Of a DNA stretch of 64,000 bases, positions 3,304 to 40,931 are shown piece by piece; position 1 is the stretch's first letter, and each line of letters begins with the position of its first letter. Made by a program: the position numbers and the translations under genes. The notes beneath the pieces were generated by a model. The model was not told the origin of the DNA and ran no database searches. It worked only from the letters and a program-made list of their open reading frames with translations. Source of the stretch: Christensenellaceae bacterium Phil10 (GTDB lineage: Bacteria; Bacillota; Clostridia; Christensenellales; CAG-917); the NCBI GenBank assembly GCA_001940895.1, contig MSGY01000016.1:1-64000 (forward strand), given 5' to 3'.

Positions 3304-4395
3304 GTGAGAGGGGAAAGGGTAACGGATAGGCGAGCGCGGCGATATATAACGATAACCGACGACGCAATGTGGGAGTATATCGACAAAATTATGACTCATC
3401 CGGACTACGATAAAAGTTTCAATAAAAACAAAGACGAGGCGGAGAGAATTAAAACGGCTACAATACAATGGCTAAAAGAAAGATTGCGATTAGACGTTTC
3501 GCCCGAAAAGACAAGGGTAGTTAATGCAAGGCAAAGGTATTCGGAGTTTCTTGGGTTTAAGGTAAAACCTTTTCCGAAAGGGAACAGGTACTTAATTCGT
3601 TCGCATATCTGCGATAAACAGATTCAAAGACAAAGTGAAAAATTAAAAGACCAAATAAAGAATATGGCAAATCCCCGAAGCGGTCATAGCCAGACAGATG
3701 AGGCGCGGCTATATAACTCAATGGTTATGGGATTGCACGAATACTATTGCACGGCAAGCTGTGTAAGTGCGGATTTCAATACCATAAGGAACAAAATAGA
3801 GCCGACACTTGTGAACAGAATGCAGAAAAGTATTGATTACCAATTAGCCGATAAAGGTCGGGAATTGACGATATACGAAAAGGATAAATACGGCAAAAGC
3901 AAATTGCTTAAATACCTAAAAGGTTGCGGCGAGCCGTTATATCCGATTAGTTACGTCAAATATGAAAATCCTGTCGGAATACAAATGGGTTTCAGTTGCT
4001 ATATTCTGCACGACAGAGAAAAGATACACGCAAACTTGAAACTTAATACAAACCTGTTGCGGCAGATAATGTTGCAAAAGTTAAATAATGAAAGTGTAGA
4101 ATATGCGGATAACAGACTGTCGCTGTTTTGTGCTCAATGGGGTAAATGTGCCATTACGGGCAAAGAGTTTAACAGCGTTTCTGAAATTCATTGTCATCAT
4201 AAAATTCCCAGAAGTATGGGTGGTGGCGACGAATATGCTAACCTTGTGTTGGTAGATAGGAATGTTCATAGACTTATACACGCCACAAATATAAATACGG
4301 TCAAAGAATATGTAACTTTGTTAGGCTTGAACCATAGCCAAATAGAAAAACTTAATGCCTTGCGTGAAAAAGCTGGGCTAAATAAAATCTTTTAG
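3304..4395 (+). CDS. Chimeric ORF: mobile-element protein head fused to group II intron maturase/HNH tail
   Basis: A 363-residue ORF with two unrelated parts. Residues 1-40 (RRYITITDDAMWEYIDKIM and following) look like a conjugative-element protein. From about residue 41 the sequence is a group II intron protein of LtrA type: LKERLRLDVSPEKT and YSEFLGFKVKPF mark the end of the reverse-transcriptase and thumb region, then the maturase X domain, then an HNH endonuclease (CHHKIPRSMGGGDEYANLVLV, and HRLIHA, roughly residues 275-335). The reverse-transcriptase palm with the YADD catalytic motif is absent, so the protein cannot reverse transcribe. The junction falls near nt 3424. Either a deletion joined two genes or the assembly is wrong here. 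The HNH part appears intact. Confidence 0.75.
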   Translation: MRGERVTDRRARRYITITDDAMWEYIDKIMTHPDYDKSFNKNKDEAERIKTATIQWLKERLRLDVSPEKTRVVNARQRYSEFLGFKVKPFPKGNRYLIRSHICDKQIQRQSEKLKDQIKNMANPRSGHSQTDEARLYNSMVMGLHEYYCTASCVSADFNTIRNKIEPTLVNRMQKSIDYQLADKGRELTIYEKDKYGKSKLLKYLKGCGEPLYPISYVKYENPVGIQMGFSCYILHDREKIHANLKLNTNLLRQIMLQKLNNESVEYADNRLSLFCAQWGKCAITGKEFNSVSEIHCHHKIPRSMGGGDEYANLVLVDRNVHRLIHATNINTVKEYVTLLGLNHSQIEKLNALREKAGLNKIF

Positions 4396-4515
4396 GTCGA
4401 TTGAATAGAATTATAATCTTACATACGATGGAACGCGGAATGCGGTGAAAGTCGCACGTTCCGTGTGAAGGAGGGGAAAAGTCCGAGATGATTTCAGAGA
4501 CTTACCTATTCCTAT
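3424..4515 (+). mobile_element. Group II intron, 3' remnant (maturase C-terminus plus domains V and VI)
   Basis: The 5' ribozyme domains and the first half of the maturase gene are missing. The 3' end is well preserved: domain V at about 4431-4465 shows an ACGCGGAA arm pairing with TTCCGTGT, an inner TGCGGT/GTCGCA helix capped by GAAA, and a two-base CG bulge, with a CGC catalytic triad. Domain VI follows with an AAGTC/GACTT stem and a candidate branch-point A at about 4504. The exact 3' splice boundary (about 4510-4515) is uncertain. Confidence 0.75.
4431..4510 (+). ncRNA. Group II intron domains V and VI
   Basis: Paired arms visible by eye: an outer 8-bp helix (with one G-U pair), an inner 6-bp helix with a GAAA tetraloop, and a downstream 5-bp domain VI stem. 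This is the ribozyme catalytic core region. It cannot self-splice without the missing 5' domains. Confidence 0.7.
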
Positions 4516-38715: not shown

Positions 38716-38742
38716 AAGGCACGCAAAAGCGTGCTTTTTTTA
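38716..38742 (+). terminator. Terminator after proA
   Basis: A GCACGC (38719-38724) and GCGTGC (38729-38734) stem with AAAA loop, extended by two weaker pairs, then seven T residues. Confidence 0.85.
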
Positions 38743-38812
38743 TTATTTTAATTATTCATGTGTAAAATTTTCGTATAATTCCTATTAAATCAGTAAACTT
38801 TAATATTATGGC

Positions 38813-38841
38813 TTGACATTAGACCCGAGTTTACATATAAT
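38813..38841 (+). promoter_or_regulatory. Promoter of the Rrf2-NifS operon
   Basis: Perfect consensus TTGACA (38813-38818) and TATAAT (38836-38841), spacer 17 bp. RBS AAGGTAGG follows. Confidence 0.88.
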
Positions 38842-38846
38842 AAACT
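38828..38846 (+). promoter_or_regulatory. Candidate Rrf2 operator
   Basis: A 6-bp palindrome, AGTTTA (38828-38833) and TAAACT (38841-38846), with a 7-base centre, covers the -10 box. Its position fits autorepression by the Rrf2 domain encoded just downstream, like IscR. It is a pattern call without known consensus for this group. Confidence 0.45.
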
Positions 38847-38868
38847 TGACTAAAAAGGTAGGTTATAT

Positions 38869-40449
38869 ATGAAATTATCATCAAAAGCACGCTACGGGCT
38901 TAAAGCCTGTCTGGCATTGGCAGAAAATCATAACGTAAACAAACCGCTGGCCCTTCCGGTGTTCAGCGAGAAAGCCGGCGTTACCGAAGCTTATATGGAG
39001 CAGATAATAATCCTTCTGAAAAAAGCCGATATCGTGGAAAGCGTACGCGGCGCGGGAGGCGGGTATTACCTTAAAAAATCGCCCGACGAAATTAAAGTCG
39101 GCGAAATCATCAGGGCGCTTGAAGACGGACTTGAAATAGTCGATTGCATAAATACGCCTTGCGAGGCGGCCGACGAGTGCAAGGCAAGGAAAGTCTGGAA
39201 CAGGATTTACAAGAATATGAATCTCGTCCTTGACGGTATCACTCTTGCGGACCTGCTTCGCGACCAAAAGAGATACGTCTATCTGGACCATTCCGCAACC
39301 ACCGCCGTCGACGACGAGGTTCTTGCCGGAATGTTGCCGTATTTTTCCGAAAAACCCGGAAACGCAAGCAGTCAGCATGGTATGGGCAGAGAGGCGGAAG
39401 CCGCTGTCGATATCGCACGAAAACAGGTAGCAGACGCAATAGGCGCGAAAACCAACGAGATTTATTTTACTTCGGGTGGCAGCGAGTCGGATAACTGGGC
39501 AATAAAAGGAATCGCTCACTCTTATAAGTCGAAAGGAAAACACCTTATCACAAGCGAGTTCGAACATCCCGCGGTTCTCAATACAATGAAGTATCTCGAG
39601 GGAGAAGGATACGAGGTTACCTATCTTAAAACCGATAAGGAAGGCTATATACGTCCCGAGGAACTTGAAAAAGCAATACGCGACGATACCGTTCTTGTCA
39701 GCGTTATGTACGCCAACAACGAAATCGGTACCATTCAGCCTATACCCGAGCTTGCGAAAATCGCGCACGAACACGGTGCGTTTTTCCACACCGACGCCGT
39801 GCAGGCGGTTGGCAACGTCCCCATTGACGTTAAAGAGCAAGGTATCGATATGCTGTCAATGTCGGCGCATAAATTTTACGGCCCGAAAGGAATAGGATGC
39901 CTGTATATCAAAAGCGGAATTCGTCCCGAGCGACTTATCGCGGGCGGCGAACAGGAAAGAAATCAGCGCGCAGGCACAACCAACACGCCGGGCATAGTAG
40001 GTATGGGACTCGCAATCGAAAAAGCGACTGAAAACATAGACGCAAACAACGCTTATATTTCGTCGTTGCGCGACGAATTCGTGAAAGAGGTGAAGGAAAG
40101 AATACCCGATATCCGCTACAACGGCGGAGAAAAGCGTCTTGCGGGCAACGCTCACTTTACCTTTAAGTATATCGAAGGCGAAAGCATATTGTTCACGCTG
40201 GACCTTGCCGGAATTTGCGCGTCGAGCGGAAGCGCGTGCAGTTCGGGAAGTCTCGAAGCGTCGAAAACCGTGCTTGCGATAGGCGTGCCGCCCGAAGAAG
40301 CGCACGGAAGTATCCGCTTTACGTTCGGTCGCGAAAACACCATGGACGACGTTAAGTATACGGTTGACAAACTCGAAGAAACGGTAAAAAGACTTCGCTC
40401 GATGAGTCCGCTTTTTGCCGCAGCAAAAGCAAAAATCACGATGATTTAA
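38869..40449 (+). CDS. Rrf2-family regulator fused to cysteine desulfurase (NifS)
   Basis: One 526-residue ORF with two complete domains. Residues 1-130 form an Rrf2/IscR-type winged helix: SSKARYGLKACLALAEN, VESVRGAGGGYYLKKS and putative [Fe-S] ligands C93, C98 and C104. Residues 136-526 form a group-I cysteine desulfurase: YLDHSATTAVDDEVL, the PLP lysine K335 in SMSAHKFYGPKGIG, and the persulfide cysteine C457 in ASSGSACSSG. Only six residues join them, with no stop and no start codon near the junction, so it is not two genes. Separate adjacent rrf2 and nifS genes are the norm in Clostridia. The enzyme that makes sulfur for clusters is thus bound to the likely cluster-sensing repressor. NifU follows. 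Confidence 0.93.
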   Translation: MKLSSKARYGLKACLALAENHNVNKPLALPVFSEKAGVTEAYMEQIIILLKKADIVESVRGAGGGYYLKKSPDEIKVGEIIRALEDGLEIVDCINTPCEAADECKARKVWNRIYKNMNLVLDGITLADLLRDQKRYVYLDHSATTAVDDEVLAGMLPYFSEKPGNASSQHGMGREAEAAVDIARKQVADAIGAKTNEIYFTSGGSESDNWAIKGIAHSYKSKGKHLITSEFEHPAVLNTMKYLEGEGYEVTYLKTDKEGYIRPEELEKAIRDDTVLVSVMYANNEIGTIQPIPELAKIAHEHGAFFHTDAVQAVGNVPIDVKEQGIDMLSMSAHKFYGPKGIGCLYIKSGIRPERLIAGGEQERNQRAGTTNTPGIVGMGLAIEKATENIDANNAYISSLRDEFVKEVKERIPDIRYNGGEKRLAGNAHFTFKYIEGESILFTLDLAGICASSGSACSSGSLEASKTVLAIGVPPEEAHGSIRFTFGRENTMDDVKYTVDKLEETVKRLRSMSPLFAAAKAKITMI

Positions 40450-40502: not shown

Positions 40503-40931
40503 ATGTATAACGAAAAAGTAATGGAAATATTCAAAAATCCCCAAAACGTCGGCGAGGTCGAAAATTACAACGCTATCGGTACCGTTGGTAACGCCACGTG
40601 CGGCGATATAATGCAAATCACGTTGAGAATCGAAAACGACGTCATAAAAGACGCTAAATTCAAAACGTTCGGCTGCGCCGCCGCTATTACTTCGTCGAGC
40701 GTCGCAACGAGTATGATAATAGGAAAAACCGTCGACGAGGCGCTGAAAGTCACGAATAAAGACGTAATTACCGAGCTCGAAGGACTGCCGCCGCAAAAAA
40801 TACACTGTTCGGTGCTTGCGGAAGAAGCCATAAGGGCGGCTATCGAGAATTACCGCGCGACGAGCGGGGAATCGGCGGAAGCTACCGTCTCGCGCGAGTG
40901 CGAATGCGCCTGCAAAAAGCAGGATAAATAA
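40503..40931 (+). CDS. nifU: Fe-S cluster scaffold protein, NifU/IscU type
   Basis: A 142-residue scaffold. Ligands C33 and D35 (GNATCGDIM), C58 (FGCAAA) and C102 (IHCSVLAEEAI) match the IscU-type cluster site. The start YNEKVMEIFKNPQNVGEVEN is the NifU N-terminal pattern. A C-terminal ECECACKK adds three cysteines not needed for the scaffold fold. It receives sulfur from the upstream NifS domain and assembles clusters. RBS TGGAGGAA. Confidence 0.94.
   Translation: MYNEKVMEIFKNPQNVGEVENYNAIGTVGNATCGDIMQITLRIENDVIKDAKFKTFGCAAAITSSSVATSMIIGKTVDEALKVTNKDVITELEGLPPQKIHCSVLAEEAIRAAIENYRATSGESAEATVSRECECACKKQDK

Follow-up and report, generated by a model that had tools for sequence, protein, structure and literature searches.

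Can a repressor that senses cluster supply and the enzyme that donates the sulfur for these clusters be one and the same polypeptide? This question is raised by a single gene on the forward strand (38869..40449) of a 64-kb stretch of DNA, referred to as the window, from one draft genome of an uncultured Clostridia bacterium, which is 54.7% complete and the only member of its genus among the genomes compared. Cysteine desulfurases supply persulfide sulfur and clusters are assembled on the IscU/NifU scaffold; the reading of cluster supply by IscR-like repressors is usually explained by competition among all apo-proteins for clusters. Our analyses favour, with good but not full confidence, a clostridial iscR-iscS-iscU operon in which the first two genes were joined, resulting in a cluster-sensing autorepressor and a desulfurase within one polypeptide. 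The observed part of this explanation comprises the single frame, the intact motifs, the operon context and the conserved operator elements at the promoter.

The fused gene and its join

The fused iscR-iscS-type gene is a single open frame running from an ATG at 38869 to a TAA at 40449 and encoding 526 amino acids plus stop. Its N-terminal half is an Rrf2/IscR winged-helix domain (residues 3-131, 38875..39261) matching Pfam PF02082 with 3.7e-33 over model positions 1-131 of 132, and a phmmer match to the structure 4cic, entitled as a BADM/Rrf2 regulator, extends over residues 1-134 with 5.6e-26. The C-terminal half is a NifS/IscS cysteine desulfurase domain (residues 137-515, 39277..40413), which covers the NCBIfam model TIGR03402 completely (positions 1-379 of 379) with 542.2 bits at a cut-off of 530.75 and the Pfam family Aminotran_5 with residues 137-496 (1.6e-84). 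These matches near full model length bear out the original prediction that a complete Rrf2/IscR regulator and a complete cysteine desulfurase share one reading frame, and the residues it named, i.e. C93, C98, C104, K335 and C457, are all correct. The three cluster cysteines C93, C98 and C104 are invariant in 138/138 homologues, and the regulator half retains the DNA-contact residues E44, Q45, R60, G64, G65 and Y66. The desulfurase half retains H233, D309, Q312, K335, C457 and R483; the catalytic residues K335, the PLP lysine, and C457, the persulfide cysteine within the SSGSACxSG loop, are invariant in 206/206 homologues. Judged by family match and active-site residues, this half is a group I cysteine desulfurase of the NifS/IscS type.

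The assignment of the regulator half is less specific. The fused protein exceeds the cut-off of the NCBIfam model rrf2_super but reaches neither the IscR equivalog TIGR02010 (104.7 bits vs a cut-off of 207.55) nor the CymR equivalog NF047409 (102.9 bits vs 195), which is why we regard it as IscR-like and not as a strict IscR or CymR. The fourth cluster ligand of E. coli IscR, His107, aligns with Arg107 in the fused protein; among the clostridial homologues an Arg or Lys is found at this position in 91/138 and a His in 13/138. With 58.8% identity in the Rrf2 half and 62.0% in the NifS half to the nearest relative carrying both genes in tandem (L023), neither half of the fusion is decaying. An AlphaFold2 model, calculated from a 37-row alignment that includes read-through rows of relatives with both genes in one frame, has a mean pLDDT of 89.6 and forms the expected elements of both folds, and Foldseek returns Nfs1 and IscS as top matches of the desulfurase fold. 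In the available part of the genome (54.7% complete) the fused protein is the only Rrf2 protein found.

The join itself is formed by the five residues D132-Q-K-R-Y136 (39262..39276), at the place where the Rrf2 gene stops and the NifS gene starts in relatives. The junction had been described as about six residues long without a start codon nearby; it is indeed very short, the exact number being five, and no in-frame ATG, GTG or TTG is present between M117 and the NifS body. A Shine-Dalgarno-like motif was likewise not found at the join, whereas such a motif precedes NifS in 131 of the 135 two-gene relatives in which the start of NifS could be called. This bears on a reading according to which two proteins are still made, either by internal initiation at a rare start codon or M117 or by proteolysis at the join. 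The basic QKR stretch in the join and M117, which precedes the NifS body by approximately 20 codons, speak for it; however, the lack of a ribosome-binding motif and of nearby ATG, GTG or TTG codons at the join argues against initiation there, and a protein starting at M117 would retain part of the Rrf2 dimer helix. We consider the production of two proteins very unlikely.

A fusion might also be created on paper, by an assembly or sequencing error merging two neighbouring genes. The source being a draft metagenome-type bin and the fusion being absent from all sampled relatives in its family are compatible with such an error. We went through all possible one-base changes around the join, be they substitutions, insertions or deletions. 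None of these yields an Rrf2 stop together with a nearby ATG, and eight insertions yield a stop plus a start, this being a TTG located 36-51 nt upstream. As no one-base change restores both stop and ATG, it is unlikely that a slip in sequencing or another single-base error is the origin of the window's fusion. An erroneous join would require two or more separate changes, and we judge an assembly or sequencing error to be very improbable. How close two separate genes can be to a joined gene is illustrated by relative L034, in which stop and ATG abut in one frame and two base changes would create a join like that of the window. In the two-gene relatives with a called ATG the genes overlap or lie at most 3 nt apart in 66/131 cases, and 27 of these 66 closely packed pairs share a 4-nt ATGA overlap. 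This tight iscR-iscS packing provides an easy starting point for a fusion, and the case illustrates how overlapping operon genes can become fusions. The fusion is well supported by the sequence present in the window.

Operon context and control region

Around the fused gene, the order is proA, a terminator-like hairpin, the fused gene and nifU. The hairpin (38716..38737, forward strand), a match to the terminator consensus with a 9-bp stem and a T-run, lies after proA and before the isc promoter. The nifU/iscU scaffold gene (40503..40931, forward strand) encodes 142 amino acids with C33, C58 and C102, matches PF01592 with 2.7e-47 and scores 186.9 bits against TIGR03419, 1 bit below the cut-off. 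Beyond its NifU_N domain the protein bears a cysteine-rich tail, CECACKK, containing C133, C135 and C137. At the start of the window, positions 1117-2784 encode an ArdC-type anti-restriction protein with a zincin domain, which suggests that a conjugative or otherwise mobile element is located there. An Rfam group II intron match (4431-4515) follows an open reading frame (3304-4395) with an HNH domain and no Pfam match to a reverse transcriptase, so the intron protein looks 5'-shortened.

The fused gene is preceded by a sigma-70-type promoter, TTGACA-N17-TATAAT (38813..38841, forward strand), agreeing with the consensus at 12/12 positions. The original prediction placed an operator covering this promoter at 38828..38846. 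The inverted repeat AGTTTA-N7-TAAACT is present there, but when the region is shuffled, one or more repeats of this kind are to be expected in 55% of cases, i.e. it does not rise above chance level, and orthologues conserve a different element, corresponding to 38843..38865. To locate operators we used a matrix, AATCCTAGTAAATTAGTAGGAAT, built from 134 other loci and present in 130 of these; in the members of the order checked the operator usually follows the -10 box and precedes the start codon. Two candidate copies of this IscR-type operator were identified in the window. One is located on the reverse strand upstream of the -35 box (38778..38800) and, with 10.5 bits, is the top match to the matrix in the whole 64 kb on both strands; the nearest tandem relative (G023/L023) has an operator copy at the corresponding place. 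The other, on the forward strand after the -10 box and before the start codon (38843..38865), occupies the same position as the conserved operator of the orthologues and its core, TTGACTAAAAAGGTAGG, is identical in L023, but it is degenerate, scoring 6.5 bits compared to a median of 24 bits in relatives. The GGTAGG of this copy sits where a Shine-Dalgarno motif would be. A similar arrangement was seen upstream of Rrf2 genes in this order, e.g. L120, L034 and L126, in which the right half of the operator (GTAGG/ATAGGG) ends 3-8 nt before the Rrf2 start codon; as it occupies the position expected for a Shine-Dalgarno motif, a single element may serve both as operator and as ribosome site.

The fused gene thus opens an isc operon having conserved operator elements at its own promoter, of which the downstream copy is weak. 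Autorepression could therefore be weakened, and the degenerate copy of 6.5 bits is what suggests that the fusion might be real but that its regulator half has become a passenger, with loss or weakening of its DNA binding or of operon control. This is distinctly unlikely in our view: all DNA-contact and cluster residues are kept, the upstream copy is the top operator match in the window, and the joined gene L120, found in another family, retains a full operator (25.3 bits). Probably, the fused protein still acts both as an autorepressor and as a desulfurase.

Distribution and origin of joined genes

Surveys at the level of family, order, class and phylum agree with the view that regulator and desulfurase are normally two genes in Clostridia. 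Among 43 genomes of the family, including the window's own, no other joined gene was present. Most same-family genomes, e.g. L005-L018, have a NifS gene without a neighbouring Rrf2 gene, suggesting that Rrf2 was lost or moved there. Within the order (396 genomes) we found one further full joined gene, L120 (genome G334), which encodes a joined Rrf2-NifS protein of 525 amino acids and is overlapped by nifU; in L146 (genome G413), from the same family as L120, an Rrf2 tail is in frame with NifS and is cut by the contig end. Joined genes were absent from families f5 and f32 and from the 80 best GTDB contig loci, in-frame Rrf2/NifS neighbours were always separated by a stop in the searches of class, phylum and two further families, and a survey of Rrf2 genes in 299 genomes of the phylum gave no long joined frame among the matches listed. 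The searches for fusions used score limits, so that distant fusions could escape. Two long open frames, L199 and L193, were considered as further fusions and rejected, stops closing off the NifS frame from the Rrf2 gene. From these surveys, the joining of both genes appears to be rare. The literature searched contains no described Rrf2-NifS or IscR-IscS fusion, in agreement with the original prediction that no protein of this kind has been described; the operon is well known, but this domain fusion within it has apparently not been described so far.

L120 and L146 resemble the window's gene in domain order and in a short join devoid of a start codon, L120 also in having nifU next; in contrast, they belong to another family of the same order, the join sequences differ among all three, and they do not form one clade. 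In the NifS tree the window groups with its own family (support 87/89), L120 is placed beside a two-gene relative (100/92) and L146 stands apart. One shared ancestral fusion of the window, L120 and L146 was rejected (AU test, p = 0.004), and a single event for L120 and L146 was weakly rejected (p 0.027). The search for NifS homologues with N-terminal Rrf2 domains and their placement on a phylogeny, as had been proposed, therefore yields two more cases and three separate positions in the tree. Applying the same one-base test, one added G restores an ATG in each of L120 and L146, so each may be explained by one lost base, and this one-base deletion could be natural or artefactual in either case. 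Both consequently offer a softer independent support for this type of fusion, and the case for the window's fusion is independent of them. Close relatives all having two separate genes had been named as evidence against the fusion; the sampled members of the family do show two genes or a NifS gene without an adjacent Rrf2 gene, but no one-base change at the window's join yields the two-gene arrangement and joined genes occur in another family. The joining seen in the window has the appearance of a recent, sporadic and lineage-specific event; comparable joined genes were seen in a single further family of the order.

A model for the fused protein and comparison with known systems

We infer that the fusion is expressed as one protein, dimerises, binds a cluster and acts in repression. 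According to this model of a joined autorepressor and desulfurase, the desulfurase half of the dimer would hand persulfide sulfur from C457 to the separate scaffold NifU, from which clusters would go to their targets and to the Rrf2 half; the latter would gain or lose its cluster in step with supply and, when loaded, would repress the operon's own promoter. The original idea of a cluster being passed from the enzyme to its own sensor is wrong in this detail, because a desulfurase donates sulfur and the scaffold NifU is encoded by a separate gene. As one chain carries both, sensor and sulfur donor would always be made one to one.

A more far-reaching alternative is a new feedback device, in which the desulfurase half would act on its own sensor without an intermediate, loading or modifying it by a persulfide on C93, C98 or C104 or by a cluster assembled on site together with NifU, or in which its PLP/cysteine state would gate DNA binding. 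A precedent in trans is given by CysK-CymR (PMC2940859, PMC9338935), the homologous rrf2-iscS-iscU-trmU genes of C. perfringens respond to cysteine limitation (PMC2940859), and the five-residue join holds both halves close. Against this, we found no residue or motif by which the fused proteins stand out, the join sequences vary among the three cases, and the unfused tandem relatives retain the same sensor cysteines and operators, for which reason the ordinary mechanism suffices. We regard such a device as rather unlikely. The same low expectation applies to a covalent sensor-enzyme arising in several lineages separately, in which the state of the desulfurase or in-place sulfur gates its own transcription, as no sequence feature peculiar to the fusions points to such coupling; that PLP-cysteine or persulfidated C457 would set the cluster or thiol state of the repressor half seems equally doubtful to us. 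If it were true, the sulfur donor would directly gate its own transcription. Already as a natural one-to-one covalent pair of sensor and donor, the fusion allows one to ask whether local loading of a sensor is possible, and also whether a control by PLP enzymes in the style of CymR-CysK extends to desulfurases.

Compared to known systems, the locus is closest in layout to the clostridial iscR-iscS-iscU(-trmU) operon, exemplified by C. perfringens cpe1786-cpe1783 and by the IscR CAC1675 of C. acetobutylicum, sharing the gene order, the kinds of regulator, desulfurase and scaffold, and an operator before the first gene. In contrast to these operons, in which regulator and desulfurase are two genes, the window has one protein and no trmU beside nifU. 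The E. coli isc operon provides the model for autorepression by cluster-loaded IscR (PMC8300815); the three cluster cysteines, the winged-helix residues and the desulfurase active site are common to E. coli IscR/IscS and the fusion, while IscR and IscS are separate proteins in E. coli and fused in the window. In B. subtilis, the Rrf2 repressor CymR forms a complex with CysK, a PLP enzyme from cysteine metabolism, and this complex formation controls the binding of CymR to DNA (PMC2940859, PMC9338935). In both systems an Rrf2 repressor is paired with a PLP enzyme from cysteine metabolism, but CymR, which binds no cluster, forms a reversible complex in trans with CysK, whereas in the fusion, known from its sequence, the linkage is covalent and the enzyme is a desulfurase.
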